This document shows positions 7,733-24,765 of a DNA stretch of 64,000 nt, in pieces. The notes beneath the pieces are model-generated. The model did no database searches. It saw only the letters and a list, made by a program, of their open reading frames with translations, and was not told where the DNA came from. Numbering within the stretch: the stretch's first letter is position 1; every line of letters starts with the position of its first letter. The position numbers and the translations under genes are program-made. The stretch is from a bacterium (GTDB taxonomy: Bacteria > Armatimonadota > Fimbriimonadia > Fimbriimonadales > Fimbriimonadaceae), in the NCBI GenBank assembly GCA_027485645.1, contig JAIXQR010000007.1:1-64000 (forward strand). The letters run 5' to 3'.

Positions 7733-8650
7733 ATGCCCGTTATTGCGGAATCTGGAGCACTTGAACTCCGCAAGCAACGGGCCGCGAGCCTTAGCGTTGG
7801 CTACAACGTTGTCGCGACGGTCGTGAAACTCATCGGTGCCGGACTCACCGGATCGGTGAGTCTGCTGAGCGAAGCCGCCCACAGTGCCACCGACATCGTC
7901 GCGAGCCTTCTCGCGTTCTTCAGCGTTCGTGCCGCTGCCGCACCACCCGACGAGGAGCATCCGTACGGCCACGGCAAGATCGAAAGCGTCGCCGGGCTCG
8001 CCGAGAGCATCCTGCTTGTGCTCATCGTCGCCTACATCGTCATAGAGAGCGTCGGCCGATTCGCCAAACCCGCTCCTTTGCCGAATGTCGACCTCGGGCT
8101 TGGCATCATGGCCGCAAGTGCGATCACCAGCTTCATCATCGGCAAATACGTCCAAAAGGTCGGCGTGGAGACCCGCTCGATGGCCCTACAATCCAACGGC
8201 CAACACCTGCTCGTCGACTGCTGGACCAGCGTCGGCGTCCTCCTAGCGCTTGTCGTCGTGAAAGTCACCGGCGTCGCGCAGGCGGACAACTGGTTTGCGA
8301 TTCTGTTCGCGGGCTGGATGGGCTTTAGCGCCGTACAACTCAGCCACAAGGCATATCAAGACCTCATCGACCGCCGCGTCGAAGACGAAGAGATCGCCCT
8401 GATTTCTGACCTCATCCGCAGCACTCCCGGCGTAGTCGGCTTCCACCAACTCCGCACCCGCCACTCTGGTGCAACCCACTACATCGACGTCCACGTCGTC
8501 GTCCCGCGCACTTGGACGGTGGTTGAGGCTCACGACCTCGCCGACGGTCTCGAAAAGCAGATCGAGCAGGCCCTTGCCCCGGCCGTAGCGGTCATTCACA
8601 TCGACCCGGAGCCAGAAGACGGGCTGTGCGAACACAACCCGCCCGATTAG
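7733..8650 (+). CDS. Cation diffusion facilitator family metal exporter
   Basis: A 305-residue protein with six predicted TM helices and a cytoplasmic C-terminal ferredoxin-like domain (from about residue 205, ending VAVIHIDPEPED). TM2 carries SLLSEAAHSATD and TM5 carries HLLVD. Both are HxxxD, a signature usually linked to Zn2+ rather than the DxxxD of Mn2+ exporters. HPYGHGK in the loop between TM2 and TM3 is also typical. It follows the Nramp gene by 10 bp. The pair suggests balanced metal uptake and efflux, but the metal is inferred. It ends 3 bp short of the convergent GH30 gene. Confidence 0.92.
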   Translation: MPVIAESGALELRKQRAASLSVGYNVVATVVKLIGAGLTGSVSLLSEAAHSATDIVASLLAFFSVRAAAAPPDEEHPYGHGKIESVAGLAESILLVLIVAYIVIESVGRFAKPAPLPNVDLGLGIMAASAITSFIIGKYVQKVGVETRSMALQSNGQHLLVDCWTSVGVLLALVVVKVTGVAQADNWFAILFAGWMGFSAVQLSHKAYQDLIDRRVEDEEIALISDLIRSTPGVVGFHQLRTRHSGATHYIDVHVVVPRTWTVVEAHDLADGLEKQIEQALAPAVAVIHIDPEPEDGLCEHNPPD

Positions 8651-11910: not shown

Positions 11911-12315
11911 ATGGACTCGATCAAGCAACTGCTGCAATCACACCGGCATCTCTGGTCCGCCAACTTCGTTGTTTTGTGCGCGGTCATCAGTTTCGCTTCT
12001 GCATGGCACCGAGCTTCGTTCGGTTATTGGGGTCTGCTTGTTCTGATTGCTTACATCGCATGGGCGATTGAGCTAAGGCGATTCTGGCCGGTCTGGTTTG
12101 GTCTTTTCTCCCTCTTCTTGCTTTACCGAATCTATTCGCAGGTCGACTTGATCTCTCCGCACATGTGCACTTTGCTCTATTTGGCTACCCAGTCAGGTGC
12201 CCATGCGTTGAGTATTCCGGTCCCGGAAACGCAGCAAACGGACGATCGTCCGACGTCCGGAACTAACGATCTCGCACAATCGGGCCAGCTTGAAAGTGGC
12301 AGTTTGCAGAGTTGA
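11911..12315 (+). CDS. Small membrane protein, paralogue A of a tandem pair
   Basis: 134 residues beginning MDSIKQLLQSH, with three hydrophobic segments (about 15-30, 35-55, 60-85) and a polar Thr/Ser/Gln-rich tail. The start at 11911 is chosen because the downstream gene begins with the same MDSIKQLL and because AGGA lies 9 nt upstream. An in-frame ATG at 11890 also exists. The shared core is MDSIKQLL...SASAW-H-SF...GLLV. No family recognised. The neighbourhood is AT-rich with large palindromes, unlike the rest of the window, which hints at recent acquisition or fast evolution. Confidence 0.6.
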   Translation: MDSIKQLLQSHRHLWSANFVVLCAVISFASAWHRASFGYWGLLVLIAYIAWAIELRRFWPVWFGLFSLFLLYRIYSQVDLISPHMCTLLYLATQSGAHALSIPVPETQQTDDRPTSGTNDLAQSGQLESGSLQS

Positions 12316-12336
12316 ATCAGTGGGACGTAAAGAATG

Positions 12337-12386
12337 TTAAGTTTCTTGAGTAATGCGGCGAATAGCATCTTGTTTTGGAAACTTAA
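12337..12386. repeat. Long-armed inverted repeat before paralogue B
   Basis: TTAAGTTTC (12337-12345) and GAAACTTAA (12378-12386) are perfect 9-bp arms. They extend to ATG-TTAAGTTTC versus ATGCTTAAGTTTC if one gap is allowed. The loop is 32 nt, and the second arm ends 18 bp before the ATG at 12405. It could be a regulatory hairpin in the leader, a protein site, or a terminator of the upstream paralogue. Confidence 0.55.
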
Positions 12387-12404
12387 GCATCTAGGCAGAC
12401 GGCG

Positions 12405-12773
12405 ATGGACTCGATAAAGCAACTCCTGAAAAGAAACCCCGCGTCAGGATTGACTTGCCTGTTCGCGTTGCTTTCGGCCGTCAGCCTCGCGTCTGCCTGG
12501 CACGGTCCGTCGTTCAATTTCCTTGGCGGGTTGGTGTCTTACGCGTACGTTTTGAAGTCAGAAAAGTCTTCTTCTTGGCGCGGCGTACTGTACGGGATCC
12601 TCGCCTATATACTCTTGAGTGCGGTCAAGCCCCAAACAAACTTCGGGATATCCATTGCGATGAGCTTCTTCTACGCGGGCCTAATCGCTTTTGAGATATA
12701 TCGAGAGTTCAATCGCGACGTACTCTTGGTGAACGACCGCGGCGCTTGTGAGAACTCGGGAGATAGAAGTTGA
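12405..12773 (+). CDS. Small membrane protein, paralogue B of a tandem pair
   Basis: 122 residues: MDSIKQLLKRNP, then hydrophobic segments (LFALLSAVSLASAW, FLGGLVSYAYVL, GVLYGILAYILLSAV, SIAMSFFYAGLIAF) and a polar tail. It shares its start and the SxASAWHxxSF motif with the gene at 11911, so the two arose by duplication. Its TGA stop overlaps the TTG start of the next gene (TTGA, 12770-12773), a sign of coupled translation. Function unknown; no homologous family recognised by eye. Confidence 0.6.
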   Translation: MDSIKQLLKRNPASGLTCLFALLSAVSLASAWHGPSFNFLGGLVSYAYVLKSEKSSSWRGVLYGILAYILLSAVKPQTNFGISIAMSFFYAGLIAFEIYREFNRDVLLVNDRGACENSGDRS

Positions 12774-13183
12774 CTGAGCGTGATCCGCAAAATACTCGAC
12801 TGCAACTCATTCGCATTTTTGCGACCTACGCGATCTACCTCGGCCTCGCATCCGACCTGTGGAACGCAGGTCTGATCAATGGCTCGCAGTTCGCATGGGT
12901 TCTGATCTTTCCGACTTCTATTCAGTGCCTTGCAAAAATCGTCCCTCAGCAGAAGCCCTTAGTTCTAGTTCTGAAGGGATTGATCGTCTTGGAAGCTCTC
13001 GCTTTTATTAACTTTGTTGTAGCCATGCCGGCGATAGGCATGGCACTGATCACTGGTCTACTTTTTGCCCTCAAGCTTGAATTTCCCGAGCCGAGACCTC
13101 TTAAACACTTCGAAGGCACTTTCTCCCGCGCGGAGCCAGAAGTAAGCCAGTCATTGGAGAGGTGGCTTGGGACAGACGCATAA
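12770..13183 (+). CDS. Small membrane protein, third gene of the cluster
   Basis: 137 residues from a TTG start that overlaps the preceding stop by 4 nt. The sequence has about four hydrophobic segments (IFATYAIYLGLA, FAWVLIFPTSIQC, VLVLKGLIVLEALAFINFVVAM, GMALITGLLFAL) and a charged C-terminus (EPRPLKHFEGTFSRAEPEVSQ). It lacks the MDSIKQLL start of its neighbours but has similar size and topology. Function unknown; the overlap implies that it works with or depends on paralogue B. Confidence 0.55.
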   Translation: MTERDPQNTRLQLIRIFATYAIYLGLASDLWNAGLINGSQFAWVLIFPTSIQCLAKIVPQQKPLVLVLKGLIVLEALAFINFVVAMPAIGMALITGLLFALKLEFPEPRPLKHFEGTFSRAEPEVSQSLERWLGTDA

Positions 13184-13414
13184 TGTTGTCCGCGTGCGTT
13201 GATTGTCTCAAAAGACATGTAGTGTCATTGACATTAAACTCCTGGTTCTTTGGTTTACTTTTCCTAGGCAAATTGCCTTAGTAGGTATGGACCTTCCAAG
13301 AACGGTAGAGCCTGGAAACGAAAATTTACATTTCCGCTCTAAGGCGGGAAATAATAAAACTTTGGAGCACTTTCGGCCCCGAAACGAGGCCTCGTGGCCG
13401 CGCAACTCGCTCGC
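13184..13414. other. Intergenic region between convergent genes with hairpins
   Basis: AGGCAA-A-TTGCCT (13267-13279) and TTTCCGC-TCTAAG-GCGGGAAA (about 13330-13350) are hairpin-capable and may end transcription from one or both sides. Neither has a clear T-run. No gene seen. Confidence 0.4.
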
Positions 13415-14695
13415 TCACCGCGTCGCCGATTCGCCCGCGACGTAGCCCGTCGCAAACGCCGCCTGCAGGTTGTAGCCGCCTACCGGACCCGCAATATCGA
13501 GCACCTCGCCGCAGATGAACAAACCGCCGACCTTCCGGCTTTCCAAAGTCTGAGGATCGACCTCGTCCAAAGCAATGCCACCGGCAACGCACTCGCCTTT
13601 TTCGAGCGGTACCGTCCGAACAACGCCGAGCTTCCAGCCCTTGAGCGCTTCGCCGAGCCGGTTACGAGACTTCCGATCAAGCTGGGCAAAGGTTCGGTCT
13701 GGCTCGACGCCGATGTCTGAAACCAGCGCCGCCGCCAGCCGCTCTGCCATGTGCTCGGAAACCACGGGCAAAACCCGCGATCTCGGGGAAACGCCCTGAA
13801 GCCGAGCCAGAACTTCCTCGTGCTTCAAGTCCGGCAGGATGTCTGCCTCAAGCGAAACGTCGCCACCCGGCAAAAACTCCGCGACCACGCGGCTGATCCC
13901 GAGTGCCGTCGGGCCGCTTACACCTTGGTGCGTAAACAGCAAGTCACCCCGCCACCGGGCAATCTCTTTGCCCGCCTGGCGAGCTCGAACCACGACATCG
14001 CGCAGAGCTACGCCGCTGAACTCAACCCGGCTTGGTTCCAGGTTCAAATAGATCGGAGCCAGCGAAGCACGAACCGGCACAATCGAGTGCCCCAAGTCCC
14101 TCGCCCAGTCCCAGCCGTCGCCCGTCGTCCCGCAGTTCGGATAGCTGCTACCGCCGGTCGCTAAGATCACCCGATCAGCCGGCCAAAACTGCTTCCGCTC
14201 CGCGTTCCGCATCCGGTAACCGCTATGCGCCGCCGGCGGATCGCCGGTATGAACCCCGGTCACCCGGCCATCGACCGCCTCGATTCCAACAACGGGCGTA
14301 TCCAACTGAACCGAAACGCCGCTCTCTTCAAGGTATCCAACAAGGATAGCCAGCACTTCCTTAGCCGTCTGGTCCAACGGAAAAACCCGCCCATCGGGTC
14401 GGGTGTAAACGTTAAGACCACGGTCGGTCATCATCGAAACGATCTGCCGGTTTGTCAGCTTGTAACAAGCCGGCCGAATGAACTGAGTCTCGTTCTTTCG
14501 AAAAGCTCGCAGCACTTCCTCAAGCGGCCCGTCGTGCGCCACGTTGCACTTGCCGCCGCCAGAAATCAGAATCTTCGTCCCCAGCCGCGAAGTCTTCTCC
14601 AGAATCGTGACCTTAGCGCCAAGCTGCCCGGCCCGGTACGCGGCCATGATGCCCGCCGCGCCTCCCCCAATCACGATCACGTTCGACTTCGGCAT
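13415..14695 (-). CDS. HI0933-family NAD(P)/FAD-dependent flavoprotein
   Basis: 426 residues. The N-terminal Rossmann dinucleotide-binding motif (VIGGGAAGIMAAYRAG, residues 6-21) is followed by ILISGGGKCN and RVILATGGSSYP, and near the C-terminus by GLFICGEVLDIAGPVGGYN, all diagnostic of the HI0933/YhiN family (related to BaiN). It binds FAD, but the physiological substrate in most bacteria is unknown. The start at 14695 is supported by a TACCCT -10-like element 6 nt upstream and no Shine-Dalgarno. It is divergent from the small gene at 14747. Confidence 0.9.
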   Translation of the reverse strand: MPKSNVIVIGGGAAGIMAAYRAGQLGAKVTILEKTSRLGTKILISGGGKCNVAHDGPLEEVLRAFRKNETQFIRPACYKLTNRQIVSMMTDRGLNVYTRPDGRVFPLDQTAKEVLAILVGYLEESGVSVQLDTPVVGIEAVDGRVTGVHTGDPPAAHSGYRMRNAERKQFWPADRVILATGGSSYPNCGTTGDGWDWARDLGHSIVPVRASLAPIYLNLEPSRVEFSGVALRDVVVRARQAGKEIARWRGDLLFTHQGVSGPTALGISRVVAEFLPGGDVSLEADILPDLKHEEVLARLQGVSPRSRVLPVVSEHMAERLAAALVSDIGVEPDRTFAQLDRKSRNRLGEALKGWKLGVVRTVPLEKGECVAGGIALDEVDPQTLESRKVGGLFICGEVLDIAGPVGGYNLQAAFATGYVAGESATR

Positions 14696-14701
14696 TCCTT
14701 C

Positions 14702-14707
14702 AGGGTA
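14702..14707 (-). promoter_or_regulatory. -10 element (TACCCT), leaderless start of HI0933 gene
   Basis: Minus-strand TACCCT followed by a 6-nt spacer and ATG 14695. The identical hexamer precedes the transketolase gene. Confidence 0.45.
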
Positions 14708-14746
14708 CCGGCAACTTTCTGTGTTATCATGCTTCGCCGTAACCCA

Positions 14747-15055
14747 ATGAACCTTAAGCCCATCTCGATCGAAGACCTCCTAGAATCGCCTTTTCCCGCT
14801 TCCTTCTACGTCGTCCAAGATCCTGCCACCGGCCGATTCGGCTGCTACATCCACGAAGGAATCCATGGTCTCGCCTGTTTTGAGTCCCAAGTAAACGCGA
14901 ACCTATTCGCCACGGACTTCGACGTCGCCGAAATGACCATCCGCCACGTGACGTTCGACGAAGCCCGCGAGATCGCCAAAGACCGTCCCGCCCCGGTCGT
15001 TTGCCTCATGCTGCTCGACGATCCTACCGATCCGAGGCTCCATTTCGTTCGCTAA
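14747..15055 (+). CDS. Conserved small protein of unknown function
   Basis: 102 residues beginning MNLKPISIEDLLESPF. The middle reads like an alternating beta/alpha domain (SFYVVQDPATGRFGCYI, LACFESQVNANLFATDF, PVVCLMLLDD), cytoplasmic, with no signal or membrane segment. An in-frame ATG 18 nt upstream is possible, but a TATCAT element (14725-14730) overlaps it and suits the later start better. It sits 54 bp ahead of ispG on the same strand. The family was not recognised. Confidence 0.65.
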   Translation: MNLKPISIEDLLESPFPASFYVVQDPATGRFGCYIHEGIHGLACFESQVNANLFATDFDVAEMTIRHVTFDEAREIAKDRPAPVVCLMLLDDPTDPRLHFVR

Positions 15056-15109
15056 AGCTCCTTTTCCGTCACAATCGAAAAGCGGCATCGCCGTAGAAGG
15101 AAGTAGCTC

Positions 15110-16411
15110 ATGGCGCTAGAAAGTTTTTATCCTCGACGCAAAACCTCGGTCTGCCGAATGGGCCCCGTCGCAATGGGCGGCAACCACCCCATCCTCGTGC
15201 AAAGCATGATCACCGAGGAAACGCGAAACGTCGATGCCTGCGTCGAGCAGATCATCGCCCTTCGCCAAGCCGGCTGCGAACTCGTCCGCGTCACTACGCC
15301 AAGCCTCAATGACGCTCGGCTGATGGAAGAAATCCGGGCCAAAGTTTCCGAGCGCTACGGCTACGTCCCGCTCACCGCCGACGTTCACCACCAAGGCACC
15401 GACATCGCGGTGGAAGCGGCGAAGCACGTCGACGAAGTCCGCATCAACCCCGGCCTCTTCGTCTTCAAGCGCCACGGAACCCGCGCCGGGGAAGTCGAGG
15501 CCGACGAGGCGATTGACCTCCGCGGCCGCCAAGAAGACGCCTCCGTCGACCAGCTCCGCGCCGAACTCGCCTACGACCCGAGCGAATGGCATGAAGAGCT
15601 CCAGGCCATCGAAGACAGCTTTGTCCCCGTCATCGAGGCCTGCAAAAAGTACGACCGCGCCATGCGCGTTGGCGTCAACCACGGCTCCCTGAGCGAGCGC
15701 ATCCTCGTGACCTACGGTGACACCCCAGACGGCATGGTCGAGAGCGCGTTGGAATACCTCCAGCTCTGCGAAAAGCACGGCTACACCAACCTGAACATCT
15801 CCCTCAAGGCAAGCCGAGTTCCGATCATGATCGCCGCCAACCGCCGAATGGTCGCCCGAATGGACGAAGTCGGCATGGCCTATCCGCTCCACCTCGGCGT
15901 CACCGAAGCCGGCGACGGAACCTACGCCCGCATCAAATCTACCGCCGGAATCGCGACGCTCCTCATGGAAGGCATCGGCGACACCATTCGGGTTTCCCTT
16001 TCCGAAGACCCGATCGCCGAGATTCCCGTCTGCTACGACATTCTCCAGGCCTGCGGATTGCGCAAAACCAAGGTCGAGTACATCGCCTGCCCAAGCTGTG
16101 GGCGAACCAAGTTCAACCTGCCAACCGTGTTACATCAGGTCCGCGAAGCCACCCGCCACCTCGTCGGTCTGGACATCGCGGTCATGGGCTGCATCGTAAA
16201 CGGGCCGGGTGAGATGGCCGACGCTGATTACGGCTATGTTGGTGCCGCGGGCGGGAAGATCACCCTGTACCGGAAGCGAGAGGTCGTTAAGACCGGAATT
16301 CCGCAAGAGAACGGTGTCTCTGAACTCATCTCGCTCCTGAAGAACGACGGACTATGGGTCGAGCCAGACGGCACGCGCTCCGAAGTCACCCCGCTCAGCG
16401 TTCTGAACTAA
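15110..16411 (+). CDS. ispG: 4-hydroxy-3-methylbut-2-en-1-yl diphosphate synthase
   Basis: 433 residues. IspG (GcpE) reductively opens methylerythritol cyclodiphosphate to HMBPP, the penultimate step of the MEP isoprenoid pathway. The N-terminal TIM barrel is followed by the reductase domain with 4Fe-4S ligands in CPSCGRTKF and GCIVNGPGE. The middle (NPG..., [46 protein letters not shown]) matches the cyanobacterial/plant style better than E. coli, with an acidic insert at about residues 118-165, but without the extra large domain of the plant enzyme. GAAGGA upstream of ATG 15110 is a plausible ribosome binding site. Confidence 0.96.
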
Positions 16412-16417
16412 CCCGCT

Positions 16418-16423
16418 TATACT
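16418..16423 (+). promoter_or_regulatory. -10 element (TATACT), leaderless start of radC-like gene
   Basis: TATACT ends 6 nt before the GTG at 16430; this is the best -10 match among the leaderless candidates and lies in the 18-bp gap after ispG. Confidence 0.55.
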
Positions 16424-16429
16424 AAAGCA

Positions 16430-17083
16430 GTGGGGCAGACAGCGTTATCTCGGGCGCGGACAAGCGGAGTAAGGGCGGTTTCGGTTGTAGATCTTCTCGC
16501 GGTCGGCTTGGCCCGACGCGAAGATGAAGTTGATCGTGCGGAGGCAAATTGCCGACCGTTGCTGGTTAAGATGGGCAGCATCTACAACTTGAAAGACCTC
16601 ACCGCCCAAGAGCTTGCCGCCCCGACGGGTCTGGAGCCTTTCGAAGTGCTTCGCGCCCAGGCGCTGATTGAACTGGGGCGGCGGATGGTGGAAGCAGGGA
16701 AGGGCGAAGTTCGAGAATTCTCTGATCCTGATGCGGTAGCCGAATACCTTTCCGATCTTCGGGACCAGAAGCGCGAGTTCTTTGTTGCGCTTCTCCTAGA
16801 CGCAAAGAACCAACTCATTCGCCGAGCCGATGTTCACATCGGAACGGCAAACACGTCCCTCGTTGGTGCCCGCGAGGTATTCCGCGAGGCGGTTAAGGAC
16901 GGTGCGGTTGGCATCATCGTTGCCCATAACCACCCCAGCGGCGACCCGACCCCGAGCCCGGAAGACGTCGCCGTTACGCGGCAACTTCGCGATGCCGGCA
17001 AGCTACTCGATATCCCGTTGCTTGATCACGTGATCATCGGCGAATCTCGCCACGTGAGTCTTCGCCGCATGGGACTCTTGTAG
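16430..17083 (+). CDS. radC: RadC-family JAB-domain protein
   Basis: 217 residues from a GTG start. The N-terminal helix-hairpin-helix region (GSIYNLKDLTAQELAAPTGLEPFEVLRAQAL) leads to a JAB/MPN metalloprotease-like domain with HIGTANTSLVGAREVF and the zinc motif AHNHPSGDPTPSPED. The family is traditionally called DNA repair protein RadC, but its biochemical role is unsettled. The usual N-terminal motif (EDERPREKLL) is missing and replaced by a short divergent start. A TATACT 6 nt upstream argues for a leaderless mRNA. Its stop codon lies inside the -10 element of the next gene. Confidence 0.92.
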   Translation: MGQTALSRARTSGVRAVSVVDLLAVGLARREDEVDRAEANCRPLLVKMGSIYNLKDLTAQELAAPTGLEPFEVLRAQALIELGRRMVEAGKGEVREFSDPDAVAEYLSDLRDQKREFFVALLLDAKNQLIRRADVHIGTANTSLVGAREVFREAVKDGAVGIIVAHNHPSGDPTPSPEDVAVTRQLRDAGKLLDIPLLDHVIIGESRHVSLRRMGLL

Positions 17084-17086
17084 AAT
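17081..17086 (+). promoter_or_regulatory. -10 element (TAGAAT), leaderless start of translin gene
   Basis: TAGAAT overlaps the TAG stop of the radC-like gene (17081-17083) and ends 7 nt before ATG 17094. Confidence 0.5.
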
Positions 17087-17093
17087 CCCGGCA

Positions 17094-17723
17094 ATGAACA
17101 CGTGGGATCAAACCGTTCTCGAACTCAAAGAGCGAGCGCAAGGCATGCACGAGGCGCGAGAAGCCGCGCTCGGGCACTGCCGCAAGCTCGGCCAACTCGC
17201 AGCGCGAAGCATTCGCCACGTCCACCGGCACCAGTTCGACGAAGCCGAGAACCTGCTCGAGCAGGCCAAGCAAGCCGCCGAAGCTGCCCGAGCGAGCCTG
17301 AAGCCGTTCCCAGAGCTGAATCCCGCCTACTTGCACGACTCTGAGAAGGAGATGGTCGAAGCCGCCGCCGTTCTCGCGATCGTTCGAGGTTTGCCGTACC
17401 CAACCCCCCAAGAACTCGGCGCGCAGGTGATGAGCTATCTCAACGGCATGGGAGAAGCCGCCAGCGAAGTCCGGCGCTTCGCCCTCGACAGCATTCGCCA
17501 TGGCAAAGTCGAAGAAGCGGAAGCGATTCTAGGGCAGATGGAGATGATTTACGAAGATCTCATCACCTTCGACTTCAGCGACGCCATGACCGGCGGCCTT
17601 CGCCGAACCTGCGATGCACTGCGCGCCGTCGTCGAACGCACGAGAAGCGACCTAACCCTCACGACCACGCAACAAGCCCTCACCGAAGAACTGCGTCGCT
17701 ACCGCTTGGGGGAGAACGCTTAA
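17094..17723 (+). CDS. Translin-family protein
   Basis: 209 residues, almost entirely alpha-helical. The second half carries the translin pattern: an acidic helix (SEKEMVEAAAVLAIVRG), LPYPTPQELGAQVMSYLNGMGEAASEVRRF, then GGLRRTCDALRAVVERTRSDLTL, which aligns with the C-terminal helix motif of translin and archaeal homologues. Translins bind single-stranded RNA/DNA as ring oligomers, and with TRAX form the C3PO endoribonuclease. Archaeal homologues can act alone. Translins are uncommon in bacteria, so substrate and role here are open. Being next to a radC-like gene might point to nucleic-acid metabolism. The leaderless start fixes the N-terminus at 17094. Confidence 0.78.
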   Translation: MNTWDQTVLELKERAQGMHEAREAALGHCRKLGQLAARSIRHVHRHQFDEAENLLEQAKQAAEAARASLKPFPELNPAYLHDSEKEMVEAAAVLAIVRGLPYPTPQELGAQVMSYLNGMGEAASEVRRFALDSIRHGKVEEAEAILGQMEMIYEDLITFDFSDAMTGGLRRTCDALRAVVERTRSDLTLTTTQQALTEELRRYRLGENA

Positions 17724-17768
17724 TGCAACCCAATTCAACACGTCAACGTTTCTCCTAAGGACCATCGG

Positions 17769-18437
17769 ATGCTTCAGTTCTTTCTCCATCGGGATAACAT
17801 TCCCTTCGCGATCGCCATCGGGATACTGGCCGGAATTCTTGCGCTCGAAGTCATCGGCGCAGTCCTCGGCTTTAGTCTCAGCGGCGACAACGAAGCTGAT
17901 GCGAGCATCGATCTAGACGGCGCGGATTCGCCGACCCTGGTTGCCCAGGGGCTTTACTGGCTCAGCATCGGACGAATTCCGCTCATCGCTTGGTTAGCCG
18001 TATTCTCGGCAAGCTTCGGCATCTCGGGATACGTGTTCCAAGCGGCAACCGCTATGTCGCTTGCTCCGATGTTCGCCCTTGGCACCGCTAGTCTTGGCGG
18101 CGTTATCGGCGCGAGATTCGTGGGCGGGTGGCTTGCTAAGACGGTTTTCAAGGACGAAACCACTGCCATCAGCGCTGAATCGCTCGTTGGAAATGTTGCG
18201 CAAGTCACGCTTGGCATCGGCCGCCGCGGAGCACCTACGCAGGGAAAGGTTCGCGATGTGCACGGCTTAACGCACTACGTGTTGATTGAGCCAGAGAACG
18301 AATTTGATGAACTCGCACCCGGGTCAGAAGTGATTCTGCTCCGGCGCGATGGACCGAAATACTTCGCCGTAACGAACTCTTTGGAGACCGTTATGGCTTT
18401 AGATGGCGGTGAGGTTCCGCTGAAAACAACAAATTAA
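17769..18437 (+). CDS. NfeD/YqiJ-like membrane protein with OB-fold tail
   Basis: 222 residues: TM helices at about 13-38, 73-97 and 100-122, then a soluble beta-rich domain (ESLVGNVAQVTLG, GKVRDVHGLTHYVLIEP, GSEVILLRRDG) that fits the OB fold of NfeD/YqiJ proteins. Such proteins pair with flotillins, and the flotillin gene begins 5 bp after this stop. A Shine-Dalgarno AAGGA lies 8 nt before ATG 17769. The two are expected to form a membrane-microdomain complex of unknown cargo. Confidence 0.85.
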   Translation: MLQFFLHRDNIPFAIAIGILAGILALEVIGAVLGFSLSGDNEADASIDLDGADSPTLVAQGLYWLSIGRIPLIAWLAVFSASFGISGYVFQAATAMSLAPMFALGTASLGGVIGARFVGGWLAKTVFKDETTAISAESLVGNVAQVTLGIGRRGAPTQGKVRDVHGLTHYVLIEPENEFDELAPGSEVILLRRDGPKYFAVTNSLETVMALDGGEVPLKTTN

Positions 18438-18442
18438 AGCAA

Positions 18443-20209
18443 ATGCCAATCGATTCAATGCAAGTCATCCTGCCGATCATCGGCATCGTCCTCGGGGTCA
18501 TCCTGTTACTCGGCTTCGTCGTGTCCAGGTTGTACGTCCGGTCAACGAAGGAAAGCTCGTTCGTAAAGACCGGCATGGGCGGCCAGAAGGTCGTCATGAG
18601 CGGTGGCGCGGTTGTCTTCCCGGTGATCCACGAAATCATTCGGGTGAACATGAACACGCTTCGGCTCGAAGTCCGGCGAACCGGAGAGTCGGCCCTTATT
18701 ACCAAAGACCGAATCCGAGTTGACGTTCACGCTGAGTTCTTCGTTCGTGTTAAGCCAACGGAAGAGGCGATCGCAGATGCGGCACAGACGCTCGGTCTGC
18801 GAACGCAGAATCCGGCGGCTTTGAAGGAATTGGTCGAAGGTAAGTTCGTCGACGCGCTCCGTGCTGTCGCGGCGGAGATGACCATGGAAGAGCTGCACGA
18901 GCAGCGAGTTCAGTTCGTCCAGCGCGTTCAGACCACGGTGTCGGAGGACATCCTCAAGAACGGTCTCGAACTTGAATCGGTCTCGCTGACCTCGCTCGAC
19001 CAGACCAGCATCGACTTCTTGAACCCGAATAACGTTTTCGACGCTCAAGGTTTGGCAAAGCTGACCGAGACGATCGAAGCCAAGCGAAAGCAACGAAACG
19101 ACATTGAGCAGGAAACTCGGATTCAAATCGAAACCAAGAACCTCCAAGCCGACCAGCAATCGCTGAGCATCAAGCGCGAGCAGGAATACGCGCAGATGGA
19201 GCAGCAGCGCGAAATCGAAATCCGCCGAGCCGGTCAGGTTGCGGAAATCGCCCGAGAACGTGCCGCTCGCGAGCAAGAAGCCAAGCAAGCCGAAATCGCG
19301 GCGCAGCAGCTGGTTCAACAGTCCCAAATCCTTTCGGCGCGAGAGGTTCAAGAGAGCCAAATCGCGAGTGAGCGGCAACTAAAGGAACTTGAAGTTCTTA
19401 AAGCCCAAGCCCTTGAAACTGCCGAAATTGACAAGTCAAAGGCACTCGAACTTGCGGAGCAGGATCGATCCATCGCCATCGCCGAAAAGTCCCGCGCTAA
19501 GTCCGAAGCGGAAGCCCTGGCATCTCGTGCCTTGGCCGAAGCCGTTAAAGCTGAGGAAGAAGTCATCACCGTCCGAGAGAGCGAAGTCGCCGAACGACGC
19601 AAGCGAATCGAGCTGATCACGGCCGCCGAGCAGGCTGAGAAGGAAGCGATCAAGATCACCTATGCCGCCCAAGCCGAGGTGAAGGCCACGGAAGACCGTG
19701 CGACTGCTTTGCGAACTTTGGCTTCCGCCGAAGCAGAGCAGATTCGAATTGCTGCCGCCGGTGAAGCCGACTCGATTACCGCGCGTGCGGAAGCCGAAGC
19801 GAAGCGCTACTCGGTGGAAGCCGTCGGTAAGCGCGCGATCAACGAAGCCGAGAACGTGCTTTCTGCCGCCGTGCCTGAAGCTCAAATCAAGAAGATTCTC
19901 ATCGAGAATCTCCCGGCCATCATTCGCGAGAGCGTAGAGCCGATGAAGCAAATCGATAGCATCAAGATCATGCAAGTCGAAGGGCTCGGCGGTGGCAACA
20001 ACGGAGGCTCGCACTCCGAAGCCAACACTTCGCTCGCCGACCAGATGGTGAACAGTGCGCTTCGATATCGTGGCCAAGCACCTTTGGTCGATGCGTTGAT
20101 GGAAGAGATCGGCATCAAGGGTGGCGACATCAACGGCGCGGTTCGGGCGCTCGGAGTAGGGACTGCCCCAGCCATCGCAGAGAAATCTGAGGCGGCTAAA
20201 TCCGAGTAG
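18443..20209 (+). CDS. Flotillin (YqiK-like SPFH-domain protein)
   Basis: 588 residues: an N-terminal TM helix (VILPIIGIVLGVILLLGFVV), the SPFH domain (about 35-230, with GGAVVFPVIHEIIRVNMNT), and a long Glu/Ala/Lys/Arg coiled coil (about 200-480) with many AEA and EQ repeats. The C-terminal tail contains the conserved LPAIIRESVEPM segment and a Gly/Asn-rich patch. Flotillins oligomerise at the inner membrane and organise ordered lipid domains. With the preceding NfeD-like gene it forms the classic yqiJ-yqiK type pair. Confidence 0.93.
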   Translation: MPIDSMQVILPIIGIVLGVILLLGFVVSRLYVRSTKESSFVKTGMGGQKVVMSGGAVVFPVIHEIIRVNMNTLRLEVRRTGESALITKDRIRVDVHAEFFVRVKPTEEAIADAAQTLGLRTQNPAALKELVEGKFVDALRAVAAEMTMEELHEQRVQFVQRVQTTVSEDILKNGLELESVSLTSLDQTSIDFLNPNNVFDAQGLAKLTETIEAKRKQRNDIEQETRIQIETKNLQADQQSLSIKREQEYAQMEQQREIEIRRAGQVAEIARERAAREQEAKQAEIAAQQLVQQSQILSAREVQESQIASERQLKELEVLKAQALETAEIDKSKALELAEQDRSIAIAEKSRAKSEAEALASRALAEAVKAEEEVITVRESEVAERRKRIELITAAEQAEKEAIKITYAAQAEVKATEDRATALRTLASAEAEQIRIAAAGEADSITARAEAEAKRYSVEAVGKRAINEAENVLSAAVPEAQIKKILIENLPAIIRESVEPMKQIDSIKIMQVEGLGGGNNGGSHSEANTSLADQMVNSALRYRGQAPLVDALMEEIGIKGGDINGAVRALGVGTAPAIAEKSEAAKSE

Positions 20210-20231
20210 AAACAACGGCAAGTTCGGCCGC

Positions 20232-20257
20232 GAAGGGCGCCTACCGGGCCGCCCTTC
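20232..20257 (+). terminator. Stem-loop between flotillin and glycerate kinase genes
   Basis: GAAGGGCG (20232-20239) and CGCCCTTC (20250-20257) form a perfect 8-bp GC-rich stem with a 10-nt loop. No T-run follows, so it is at best a weak or Rho-assisted terminator. It overlaps codons that seem to belong to the glycerate kinase N-terminus. Confidence 0.4.
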
Positions 20258-20262
20258 ACGCC

Positions 20263-21342
20263 ATGGCGGGCGACTTTGTGATGAGCAAAGTCGCCCGTTC
20301 GATGTTCCGGAATCGCGATTTTCAGGTCAAGGTGCTTGCGGTTGGCAAGGCAGCATCGGCCATGGTAGCAGGACTGGTTCAAGAACGTCCCCACATTGCC
20401 AGCGGGCTTGTGATCACCACGGAACTCGATAACGGTCCTCGGATTGAGGGATTCGAATATCTGGTTAGCAGCCACCCGATCCCCGACGAACGAAGCTTGA
20501 TCGCAGGCGAACGGGCCCTTGAATTTGCCGCGACTTGTCAGCGAGATGACCGTGTTGTGCTGCTCCTCAGCGGCGGTGCCTCCGCACTGATGGAAAGCCT
20601 TCGTCCTGGAATCAGTCTTGAGGAATTCCAGGCGGAAACCCGAAGGGTCATGCACTCTGGAGTCGACATCTTCGGCCTGAACAAGTTCCGCCAGGCGCAC
20701 TCCCTCATCAAATCTGGAGGGTTGGCGCGCGCGCTTTCGCACGTCAAGTGGAAGCAAGCTTACGTCATCTCGGATGTTATGGGAGACGATTTCCGCACCA
20801 TTGGCAGCGGACCGTTTTGGGGCGAAGCGGAACCCATCCCGCACCGCGTTGTGGCAAACAACGCGATGGCAGTTCTTGCCGCTCGGACCTATCTGCTCAA
20901 GAACGGATTTTGGATTGAAGACCCTGAACCGTCGCCGTTCGTAAACCGAGACGCCACGGAATTCGGTGAGCATTTAGGCGAACTATCCAATGCGCTCATG
21001 GCAAGGGAGGCGGTTGTTTACGGCGGCGAGCCAACCTTGACGGTTGAAGGAAACCGGCCTGGCGGTCGATGCCAGCACGTTGCGCTGGTTGCCGCGACGA
21101 AGATGGATTGGAACAACACCGCCATCCTCGCGGCCGGAACTGACGGCAGAGACGGCACCACGGACGTTGCCGGAGCCTGTATCAGCGCGGCCGTGGCAGC
21201 TGGGCCACGGAGACTGGAGCAGTTCGAGCAAGCCCTTCGGGAGTTCGATTCGTCTCGAGTAATCCAAGAAGAGAATTGGGCGCTTCCGGCCGAATACACC
21301 GGCACGAATGTGAACGATCTCTTTATCGCGCTACGGGTGTGA
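20263..21342 (+). CDS. Glycerate 2-kinase (GckA/MOFRL family)
   Basis: 359 residues from the first ATG. The protein phosphorylates D-glycerate to 2-phosphoglycerate. Visible motifs are [33 protein letters not shown], the MOFRL segment (YGGEPTLTV... [11 protein letters not shown]), [16 protein letters not shown] and the terminal [11 protein letters not shown]. Kinases of this family usually exceed 400 residues. In the same frame, the 21 codons before the ATG (from ATC 20200, right after a TAA at 20197) read [13 protein letters not shown], which looks like the family's first helix. The true start may therefore be a non-ATG codon upstream. It ends overlapping the convergent gene by 20 bp. Confidence 0.88.
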
Positions 21343-22174
21343 TCGTCCAAACCTGCAACTCGGCCATGCTCCAAAGCGCAACCCCGGCGGGCGGGTCTAT
21401 CGTGATGCGCACGTTCGCTTTGCCTTTAAGAAAGCGCCGATCGATTCCAAACTCACTGGTCGCCCAGCGGCGCTCTCGGTTTTCGGCAGGCTCGTACCAC
21501 CAGCCAACAAACTCACCATCAACAAGAACCCGAGCGCGCTGTCGACCGTGGAACCGGTCGTAAGTCTTTCGAAGCCGGAGCCCGGTGCAGTCTGCCGGCA
21601 GAGGCTGAGCCCAGCTAAACGAGTTCAGGAAGCTCTGATGCTCCCCGGTAAACGGAACGCCATCTTCCCAGGCACTGGAGACCGGGAACAGCTTGGTTTG
21701 GTTTTGTGCAACGACATCGTATCGTTTTCGCGCTTCCGCATCGCCGACGTGCCACCGGTCCTGCAGCTTGGTTTCAATCGAATCTGCCCAGATCACGGTG
21801 ATGTAGCCATCGCTCTTGACCTCGCGGAAGAATGGGCAAGGAACCTCGCTGGAGATATTCTGAAACGGAACTCGAAGACCGTCCACGTAGACCGGCATCT
21901 CCATCGACGTGATCCATCCCGCACCGAAGATCGGAGGCCGCACCGGTTCCGCAATGCCCTCGGGAGCGGTCAGCCGACCCAAACCAACGGGAATGACGAT
22001 CTCCTCCGTGGCCGTTCGCGTGACGAATTCCGCAAAGGACTCGGTTACGGGCCCTTCCAGATAGTAATAACCGGGACCGTCGGCATCGAGGACAACCGGC
22101 GCTCCATCCGCGTCTCGGTACAGCGGGGCTCCAAACTCGCGATAGCTTTCACCCGCGCTCAGAATAGGCTTCAT
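21323..22174 (-). CDS. Uncharacterised beta-sandwich protein
   Basis: 283 residues, no signal peptide or membrane segment seen. Rich in Trp/Tyr/Phe and beta-type alternation. The C-terminal part ([48 protein letters not shown]) resembles the jelly-roll part of DUF2961-type proteins, which would suggest carbohydrate binding or hydrolysis; this is a weak impression only. The start ATG 22174 lies only 15 bp from the start of the divergent DUF2256 gene, so the two promoters must lie in each other's coding sequence or share a core. Confidence 0.65.
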
Positions 22175-22189
22175 GACGTAGAGCTAGGC

Positions 22190-22342
22190 ATGCCGCAGCG
22201 GAACAACTCCCACCTGCCCACCAAAACGTGCGCCGCTTGCGGACGCCCATTTTCTTGGCGCAAAAAGTGGGAGCGAGACTGGGAAAACGTCAAGTTCTGC
22301 AGCGACAAGTGCCGGAAGAATAAACCTACTCCGAATCCCTAA
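22190..22342 (+). CDS. DUF2256 zinc-ribbon-like small protein
   Basis: 50 residues: [18 protein letters not shown] followed by [12 protein letters not shown]. The two CxxC/CxxxC pairs and the FxWRKKWxRDW core are the signature of DUF2256, small proteins predicted to bind zinc and of unknown function, often found near photolyase-related genes. The start at ATG 22190 leaves 15 bp to the divergent gene at 22174. The 3' end overlaps the end of pgk by 17 bp. Confidence 0.85.
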
Positions 22343-23504
22343 GTGCCGCAATCCCCGGCAAGACCTTTCCTTCCAAGAACTCAAGGCTGGCTCCGCCGCC
22401 GGTGCTCACGTGGCTCATCTTATCGGCGAGACCAAACTTTTCGACCGCCGCGGCGCTATCTCCTCCGCCGACGATCGTCGTGCCGGTGCATTCGGCCATC
22501 GCTTCTGCAACTGCGCGAGTGCCGCCTTCGAAAGGCTTCAGCTCAAACACGCCAACAGGTCCGTTCCAAAGCACGGTCTGCGCTCCCTTGATGACTTCGG
22601 CAAACGCGATTCGTGATTCTGGCCCGATGTCTAAGCCCTCTTGGTCAGCAGGAATGTTGTCGGTCGTAACGACGGTGGTGTTGGCATCCGCCGAGAACGC
22701 GTCGGAAGCGATGATATCAACCGGCAACAAGATTTTCTCGGGGAACTCTTTCAGCAAGCTCGCGGCGTAGTCGATCGAGCTGGCATCGAGAATCGACTTG
22801 CCGATTTCTTTGCCTTGTGCCTTCAGGAAGGTGTAGGTCATGCCGCCACCAATGATGAGTCGGTCTACTTTCGGAAGCAGGTTGTCGATGAGCGCAATCT
22901 TGTCCTTGACCTTGCTGCCACCCATGATGGCCACGAATGGTCGCCCTGGATTCTCAACGACTGCCCCAAGATGCTGGAGCTCTTTTTCGATGAGCAATCC
23001 GGCGTACCCCGGAAGGATGTGGGCGACGCCTTCGGTGCTGGCATGGGCTCGGTGCGCGGTGCCAAATGCGTCGTTTACATAAACATCGGCAAGCTTCGCA
23101 AGCTTCGCAGCAAACGCAGGATCGTTGGCTTCTTCCTCGGGATGGAACCGCACGTTCTCGAGCAACAGAACGTCACCGGGCTGAGCTTTCGATACCGCTT
23201 TCTCAACCTCAAAGCCCACGCAGTCAGGGAGCAAGGTCACTGGCTGGTCAAGCAGTTCGCTGAGCCGCTCCGCCACGGGTTCCAAACTCAGCGCAGGATC
23301 GACGCCTTTCGGGCGACCAAGATGGCTGGCAAGAATGACGACCGCGCCTTGCTTGATCAGGTGGCCGATCGTCGGAAGGCTCTCCTCAATTCGACGACTA
23401 TCGGTAATTTCGCCGTTCTCCAACGGCACGTTAAAGTCGCATCGAACAAGAACGCGTTTTCCAGCCGCGTTGAGATCAGAGAGAGTAAGTTTTCCGAGCG
23501 CCAT
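22326..23504 (-). CDS. pgk: Phosphoglycerate kinase
   Basis: 392 residues. Converts 1,3-bisphosphoglycerate and ADP to 3-phosphoglycerate and ATP in glycolysis. The N-terminal signature [15 protein letters not shown], substrate motif [11 protein letters not shown], hinge and C-terminal nucleotide domain ([43 protein letters not shown]) are all present. Two consecutive ATG codons exist. The second (23504) is preferred because the TATTCT -10 element lies exactly 7 nt upstream, matching the leaderless spacing of other genes here. Confidence 0.97.
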
Positions 23505-23511
23505 CATTTTC

Positions 23512-23517
23512 AGAATA
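23512..23517 (-). promoter_or_regulatory. -10 element (TATTCT), leaderless start of pgk
   Basis: Minus-strand TATTCT, 7 nt before the second ATG (23504) of the ATGATG pair. Confidence 0.5.
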
Positions 23518-23541
23518 CCGATCTGATGGCGCCCGGGTTGC

Positions 23542-23727
23542 TTATTGCGGTGAATCTTTCAGCGCATTGCCTCGAACAGGCTGCGCCGCCGCCGCATCTT
23601 CTTTGGAGTACTTCTTGTCCGACTTGGCTTCTGCACCGGCCGGATTGGGTGGCTCCGCATCATTGCCGCATCCGATGACGGATGCAGCAATGACGGAAGC
23701 GAAGAGCAGTGACTTCAGTTGCTTCAT
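23542..23727 (-). CDS. Small lipoprotein downstream of pseudopilin
   Basis: 61 residues: a signal sequence with a lipobox ending VIGC (Cys 20), then a polar, disordered tail ([27 protein letters not shown]). Predicted to be lipid-anchored and periplasmic. It starts 6 bp after the pseudopilin gene, with AGGA just before its ATG, so the two are one operon. Parallels the 91-residue anchored protein after the other pseudopilin; the two share no clear sequence beyond a Pro-rich tail. Confidence 0.72.
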
Positions 23728-23733
23728 GTCCTG

Positions 23734-24765
23734 TTATGGGAAGCAAGGAAGGGCCGAGCCAGAAGGACCGATCGTGTACTCGAAGGTCGAGTCGGGTCGG
23801 AAGTAGCTCATGTATCGGCCGGCACCTGGGGAAGACACGCAACGTGCAGGAACGTACAGGTTTCCAGGCGCGCTGACTGGATCGCCAACGCAGTCGGCCG
23901 TTTTGCTGTACTGATAGCCCGGAATGTTTCGGTTTCCGGTGTTGAAGCCCTCGGTCGGGTGCTTGATGAATCGCGCAGACGAGTCGGTCGCAACCACGAG
24001 CCAGCCGTCGCCAAAGACGTGGGTGGTGTCACTCGCGCCTTCGAAGGTGCACTCGTAAGTGTCTTGTCGGCTTGCCAACGATCGCGTGCTTCCGGCTTGC
24101 GGAACGCCGCCAGCGTTGAACTTACAGACCGGTGCCGGGTTTCCAGGCGTTCCGATGACCGGGCAGATCATGTAGACCGGGGTGTATCCGTAGCCTCGAT
24201 AGGCTTCCTTACCGTTGCTCCAAGTTGCGAGCGGGAGTTGGCTCGGCCGTGCGACTTCGGACGCCGAGGCGGCGTTGAGCAGTCCGTTGGTGGCCAGAGA
24301 GGTGACGGGGAGTCCCGCTGGTGCGGTGGTGTAGCTGAAGCCCGCCGTGTAGAGCGTCTGACCGCTGGCCGTGTAGATGTCGTAGTTCTTCGTGTACGGG
24401 AATGTGGAGTTGTGCCACGCAACGGCATCAGCGGCGGTGAACGCCGAGTTGGCTCCCCAACCGGCCGGGACGGAGTGAAGTCGGTACGAAGGAGTGCTCC
24501 AGAAGCTGTGTAGGTAGGTGCCGGTGATCGGGTCGATGGAGTGCATCAACGGGAAGTAGTCGTCGTAATCCGTGGAGTACAGAAGGATGCCCGTTCCCGT
24601 CTGCTTGGTATTACTCAACGCAGCAGACTTCTTGGCCGCAGCTTTCGCCTGGGCGAAGACCGGGAAGAGGATGGCAGCGAGAATCGCAATGATGGCGATT
24701 ACGACCAGCAGTTCGATAAGCGTGAAGCCCTTCGAACCATTCTTTGAGGTTTGACAGTTTTGCAT
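23734..24765 (-). CDS. Type II secretion/type IV pilus-like pseudopilin
   Basis: 343 residues. The leader (MQNCQTSKNGSKG) precedes [16 protein letters not shown] with Gly at -1 and Glu at +5, the canonical prepilin peptidase site. The hydrophobic helix continues to [13 protein letters not shown], nearly identical to the other pseudopilin at 11310. The long globular domain contains LLYSTDYDDYFPL and a DGWLVVATDS segment. ATG 24765 is chosen since GGAG lies 5 nt upstream; longer readings have no Shine-Dalgarno. Forms an operon with the lipoprotein. Likely a secreted or surface filament component. Confidence 0.85.
   Translation of the reverse strand: MQNCQTSKNGSKGFTLIELLVVIAIIAILAAILFPVFAQAKAAAKKSAALSNTKQTGTGILLYSTDYDDYFPLMHSIDPITGTYLHSFWSTPSYRLHSVPAGWGANSAFTAADAVAWHNSTFPYTKNYDIYTASGQTLYTAGFSYTTAPAGLPVTSLATNGLLNAASASEVARPSQLPLATWSNGKEAYRGYGYTPVYMICPVIGTPGNPAPVCKFNAGGVPQAGSTRSLASRQDTYECTFEGASDTTHVFGDGWLVVATDSSARFIKHPTEGFNTGNRNIPGYQYSKTADCVGDPVSAPGNLYVPARCVSSPGAGRYMSYFRPDSTFEYTIGPSGSALPCFP

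Follow-up and report, generated by a model that had tools for sequence, protein, structure and literature searches.

The window, by which we mean the entire stretch of 64,000 nucleotides analysed here, carries on its forward strand a gene (17094..17723) that starts with ATG and encodes a protein of 209 amino acids, which its sequence and predicted fold assign to the TRAX type of the translin superfamily. Directly upstream on the same strand lies a gene of the radC family (16430..17083; Pfam and NCBIfam), and downstream there follow, also on the forward strand and both recognised with Pfam, a YqiJ-like gene (17769..18437) and a flotillin gene (18443..20209). A preliminary description had located the translin gene between radC-like and flotillin genes; its upstream neighbour is indeed radC, the stop of which is at 17083, but the YqiJ-like gene intervenes before flotillin. 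A possible leaderless -10 box, TAGAAT (17081..17086, forward strand), overlaps the radC stop codon, its end lying 7 nt upstream of the ATG. An Rfam scan of positions 12000-24000 gave no match.

The six NCBIfam models NF011156-NF011161 all match the window protein, the best of them being PRK14562.1-5 (NF011160; E 2.5e-64, 216.6 bits). Every one of these scores is below the equivalog cut-off of its own model; for NF011160 this cut-off is 291 bits, a value reached in 1 of the 291 genomes of the window's phylum. The Pfam Translin model (PF01997), which the preliminary description had proposed as a check, returned a sub-threshold 19.7 bits against a threshold of 25.9 (E 9e-4), a result that is ambiguous if used alone. 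In a phmmer search of the PDB, the closest solved sequences were those of AfTRAX (2.2e-21, over residues 10-189) and NEQ131 (6.7e-10). A profile built from 57 bacterial rows, including the archaeal-like L081 described below, found AfTRAX at 3.7e-44, NEQ131 at 1.4e-26, human TRAX at 5.7e-12 and fly Trax at 7.9e-08 and 2.9e-07, with the translins at 4.6e-06 or weaker.

The monomer structure predicted for the window protein from a 57-row alignment is all-helical, with a pLDDT of 97.1 and a pTM of 0.90. Its best counterpart is the archaeal AfC3PO (Z 24.5, rmsd 1.5 A over 190 residues, 31% identity), followed by NeC3PO (Z 20.0-20.3, the upper value being that of the entry with ssRNA), human TRAX (Z 19.7) and fly Trax (Z 18.1 and 17.0). 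The translins gave Z scores of 12.1-17.2, those of human and mouse being 16.3-16.7, and the best unrelated chain reached 9.0. Both by profile and by structural Z score the protein is nearer to TRAX than to translin. The earlier identification as a translin homologue, for which comparison with archaeal structures had been suggested, is therefore confirmed by NCBIfam, the PDB search, the profile and the predicted fold. Bacterial translins are already in print, since Gupta, Kale and Kumar reportedly treated in 2012 the evolution of the translin superfamily in eubacteria, archaea and eukaryotes, and the window protein is a further, well-supported member of this known family. The solved or assayed TRAX proteins met in our searches were eukaryotic or came from two archaea; among the matches listed in the open-licence literature none dealt with the function of a bacterial member, which is weak evidence of absence.

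The models NF011156-NF011161, which catch both bacterial and archaeal translins, carry "haloacid dehalogenase superfamily protein" as their product name, with which the fold disagrees. Taken literally, this name would make the window protein a dehalogenase relative, a reading to which we give practically no credence: no haloacid dehalogenase family occurs among its Pfam matches up to E 1, the all-helical fold is that of translin, and such an identity is ruled out by fold and sequence.

The catalytic residues of human TRAX are reported to be E126, E129, D193 and E197 (PMC9753400). In the window protein all four corresponding positions are acidic: E86 (codon 17349..17351), E89 (17358..17360), E121 (17454..17456) and E125 (17466..17468), all on the forward strand, are in register with the acids of AfTRAX and NEQ131 in the alignment, and E121 occupies the position of the catalytic Asp. 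The correspondence with the human numbering was established through the archaeal alignments and the residue spacing rather than from a printed human alignment. Two predicted helices would carry the acids in pairs, E86 and E89 at a spacing of 3 and E121 and E125 at a spacing of 4; these are the spacings of E126/E129 and D193/E197 in human TRAX. At the E121 position, NEQ131 has Asp, as does AfTRAX in entry 3zc1; in entry 3zc0, with duplex RNA, the residue is Ala. The inspection of acidic residues advocated in the preliminary description thus shows acids at all four positions, but with Glu in place of the Asp.

This pattern extends across the bacterial family. Among 99 aligned rows, D82, E86, E89, E125 and D132 are invariant and the E121 position is Glu in 98. 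These rows derive from 111 loci, reduced to 100 by removal of exact duplicate sequences and to 99 by setting L081 apart; they are not independent, as they include L001, a near-copy of the window, and many stem from the same families. The sole row with Asp at the E121 position is L032:1516-2127 (reverse strand).

The swap may weaken or alter catalysis, and because of it the main rival to a nuclease is a protein that binds without cutting: a non-catalytic oligomer for RNA or ssDNA, a translin-like scaffold whose nuclease activity was lost with the replacement of Asp by Glu. In its favor, Glu121 takes the place of the catalytic Asp in 98 of 99 rows, and eukaryotic translin is described as binding nucleic acid with no nuclease activity of its own (PMC3834833). 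We nonetheless consider this scaffold rather unlikely. All four positions remain acidic across two phyla, whereas translin is reported to retain E197 alone of the four TRAX acids (PMC9246224); the Asp in L032 suggests that Glu and Asp are exchangeable here; and the profile places TRAX chains over translin chains.

The reading that we favor, and think probable, is that of a stand-alone, homo-oligomeric and metal-dependent endoribonuclease of the C3PO type acting on short RNA. It is proposed by analogy, because the TRAX of Nanoarchaeum by itself is reported to degrade RNA through oligomerisation (PMC9051087). The TRAX-type subunit would self-assemble, probably into an octamer like that of archaeal C3PO, to form a hollow endoribonuclease; short single-stranded RNA would be taken in and cut by a metal-dependent cluster of E86, E89, E121 and E125. 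The likely substrates would be short RNA leftovers, for example fragments from tRNA processing, and the enzyme would serve as an Argonaute-free housekeeping function. For the bacterial TRAX, what we observe is its place in the family, its affinity to TRAX rather than translin, the conserved acids with their swap, the single match in the genome and the spread through the phylum; self-assembly, cutting, metal dependence and substrate are inferred. The single-protein C3PO-like RNase envisaged in the preliminary description draws support from the sequence, the predicted fold, the clade-wide acids and the occurrence of one NF011160 match in the window's genome, a few genomes of the phylum having two.

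The AfC3PO/AfTRAX of Archaeoglobus (PDB 3zc0, 3zc1) resembles the window protein in fold, in length, in being encoded by a single TRAX-type gene and in four acidic positions in register; it differs by an Asp at the position of the bacterial Glu121 and in having RNA-complex structures, whereas the bacterial protein is known here from its sequence and predicted structure. The NeC3PO/NEQ131 of Nanoarchaeum (PDB 5jr9, 5jrc, 5jre) has the same fold and differs in its lower identity (22%) and in its Asp. Eukaryotic C3PO shares the superfamily fold, its TRAX subunit being nearer than its translin, but it consists of two different subunits and has a role in RNAi, whereas the bacterial form has one gene, and Argonaute is almost absent from the genomes of the phylum.

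The last point follows from a survey of genomes. Since PF01997 is sub-threshold for the window protein, and at E 1e-5 detected the gene in no more than 10 of 397 genomes, a single one of which lies outside the window's phylum, distribution was counted with NF011160. The gene is present in 254 of 291 Armatimonadota genomes (E 1e-8), and in 181 of the 194 with completeness of at least 90% and contamination of at most 5%. Among other bacterial families it was found in 2 of 106 genomes (2/80 and 0/26; E 0.001), namely G349 and G356, and in the phylum to which G349 belongs it occurs in 167 of 301 genomes (E 1e-5). The translin gene is thus near-core in Armatimonadota, frequent in this second phylum and sporadic elsewhere in the sample. 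The preliminary description had called such genes rare in bacteria, which holds for the other families (2/106) but not for these two phyla. Five small genomes of the second phylum contain 19-26 reductive dehalogenase matches each, G349 containing none; for this reason and because of their size the phylum is probably Chloroflexota and, as the five are high-scoring genomes, dehalogenating organisms may be the source of the dehalogenase product name.

The copy in G356 (L081/L111) is of an archaeal-like TRAX, most similar to NEQ131 (2.4e-21), and lies on a contig of 3,490 bases in a bacterial genome; G356 is the only one of the six genomes of its phylum with a translin match, and this copy is likely a contamination. 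A mobile origin of the gene was considered and rejected: tblastn found no match to the window protein in plasmids and phages at E 0.01, and there was no viral fold match to the predicted structure at E <= 0.001.

In eukaryotes, C3PO assists RISC; in flies and humans it is reported to degrade the passenger strand nicked by Ago2 (PMC3834833). A bacterial TRAX might by the same logic be the helper of a prokaryotic Argonaute, and each of the six Piwi-positive Armatimonadota genomes also has a translin gene, so that the two are not mutually exclusive. But Piwi occurs in just those 6 of 291 genomes, as against 254 of 291 for translin, and because of these co-occurrence counts a general Argonaute partnership is unlikely; no Piwi match was found in the window's own genome. 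As an explanation of the family, we regard an RNAi-type role as very improbable.

A gene tree built from sequences of bacterial genomes groups the rows largely by phylum: 3 changes suffice for all groups, compared with a mean of 26.4 when labels are shuffled. Neither phylum occupies one side of a branch, and 20 of the 96 inner branches are open; a transfer of the gene between the two phyla is possible. One Armatimonadota sequence on a long branch, L040:6004-6612 (reverse strand), falls with support among those of the second phylum and is itself a possible transfer.

The genomic neighborhood of the gene varies considerably. In 18 of 49 loci (a count from which L001 was omitted as a near-copy of the window) translin is immediately preceded by a radC gene in the same orientation, and the two often overlap at the start of translin. 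Fifteen of these loci are the window and relatives that belong to its own family or bear Fimbriimonas-like names; one belongs to family f2, which is of the same taxonomic order, and two to family f12. Such an arrangement could mean that the translin protein works with RadC on single-stranded DNA, in repair or recombination. To our knowledge the biochemical role of RadC is unsettled. The linkage gives no pointer to RNA, and to this extent it counts against the RNase that we propose. A partnership with RadC nonetheless seems to us improbable, more so than a binding scaffold: in the other 31 loci no radC relative was found adjoining translin, three of these loci (L045, L046 and L067) being from the window's own family, and nothing in our analysis favors a DNA substrate, although PDB entry 5jre is that of archaeal NeC3PO with ssDNA.

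Flotillin adjoins translin in the window and in its near-copy L001 only (50 loci, available flanks), and neither flotillin nor a YqiJ-like protein represents any of the 14 ORF groups common to at least 5 of the 49 loci; both were rejected as partners. The shared groups comprise translin, radC, a CCA-adding enzyme, antisense ORFs, ispG (10 loci, upstream of radC) and a prepilin-like gene, together with a downstream ORF on the opposite strand (8 loci) and some more genes, either distant or on the opposite strand, each shared by 5 loci; from ispG onward we do not regard them as partners. Among the last are L068:8104-9968 (reverse strand) and L069:4765-5109 (forward strand), opposite-strand genes near translin at five loci each; by eye these resemble NadD, Obg and RsfS. 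The shared neighbors listed for the second phylum stem from one family or from a few closely related genomes. A Pfam scan of 20 selected neighbor proteins identified a P-type ATPase, DnaX, a phosphagen-kinase-like protein, a starch synthase and a HEPN protein among others, and left three with no match at 1e-5. In a single f19 genome, the HEPN-domain gene (L066:6623-7117, reverse strand; PF05168, 1.8e-14) borders translin on its start side, overlapping or abutting it.

When start codons within the first 30 codons of long ORFs are considered, a TAnnnT box lies 5-8 nt before the start in 14 of the window's 41 long ORFs, compared with 71 of 820 controls placed upstream at random; examples occur at 7733, 16430, 44757 and 45652. 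This excess suggests that leaderless transcripts are common in the window. Boxes of this type at 6-7 nt precede four radC-less homologues (L045, L046, L047 and L067). In the radC-linked relatives L002-L007, where the translin start overlaps or abuts radC, there is no TAnnnT box at that spacing. Of the leaderless promoter inside the radC stop codon that had been described earlier, the TAGAAT box and its position hold good, but not its conservation in these relatives; a leaderless transcript of the window gene is plausible on the basis of its sequence.

A second linkage points toward RNA. In 12 of the 111 loci a protein of the CCA-adding enzyme type (PF01743, PF12627 and an HD domain) is encoded directly downstream of translin on the same strand. 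This linkage is found in all ten genomes sampled from families f31, f33, f34 and f35, and since its ten rows come together in a single clade of the gene tree, with support (99/93), it possibly goes back to a single event. In six of the ten (L012, L013, L024, L029, L056 and L076) the conserved beginning of the CCA enzyme is encoded straight after the translin stop, and the two genes therefore abut or overlap. In Neurospora, C3PO is reported to remove 5' fragments of pre-tRNA (PMC3834833), and archaeal TRAX genes are described as adjoining SepRS (PMC5424206, PMC8762117). The CCA linkage and, by analogy, the fragment removal by Neurospora C3PO suggest a tRNA-related substrate for bacterial TRAX. 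The idea that the window protein acts on tRNA, voiced in the preliminary description, gains from this an indirect support that comes from another Armatimonadota clade; beside the window gene itself, which has radC before it and the YqiJ-like gene after it, there is no CCA-adding enzyme.

Extended to the family as a whole, the endoribonuclease that we favor leads to a broader and distinctly more tentative suggestion: an all-Glu TRAX may belong to the core equipment of two bacterial phyla and, independently of Argonaute, act as an RNase that removes or trims RNA from tRNA processing, in one clade next to CCA addition. If this were true, it would suggest that C3PO began as an RNA housekeeper and acquired its role in RNAi in eukaryotes. 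The naming of the NCBIfam models after another superfamily hides these bacterial TRAX proteins. The Armatimonadota, in which the gene is near-universal, almost always single and hardly ever accompanied by Argonaute, offer a clean system for the study of C3PO outside RNAi, and the clade-wide exchange of Asp for Glu, together with the linkage to the CCA enzyme, provides concrete residues and substrates to probe.
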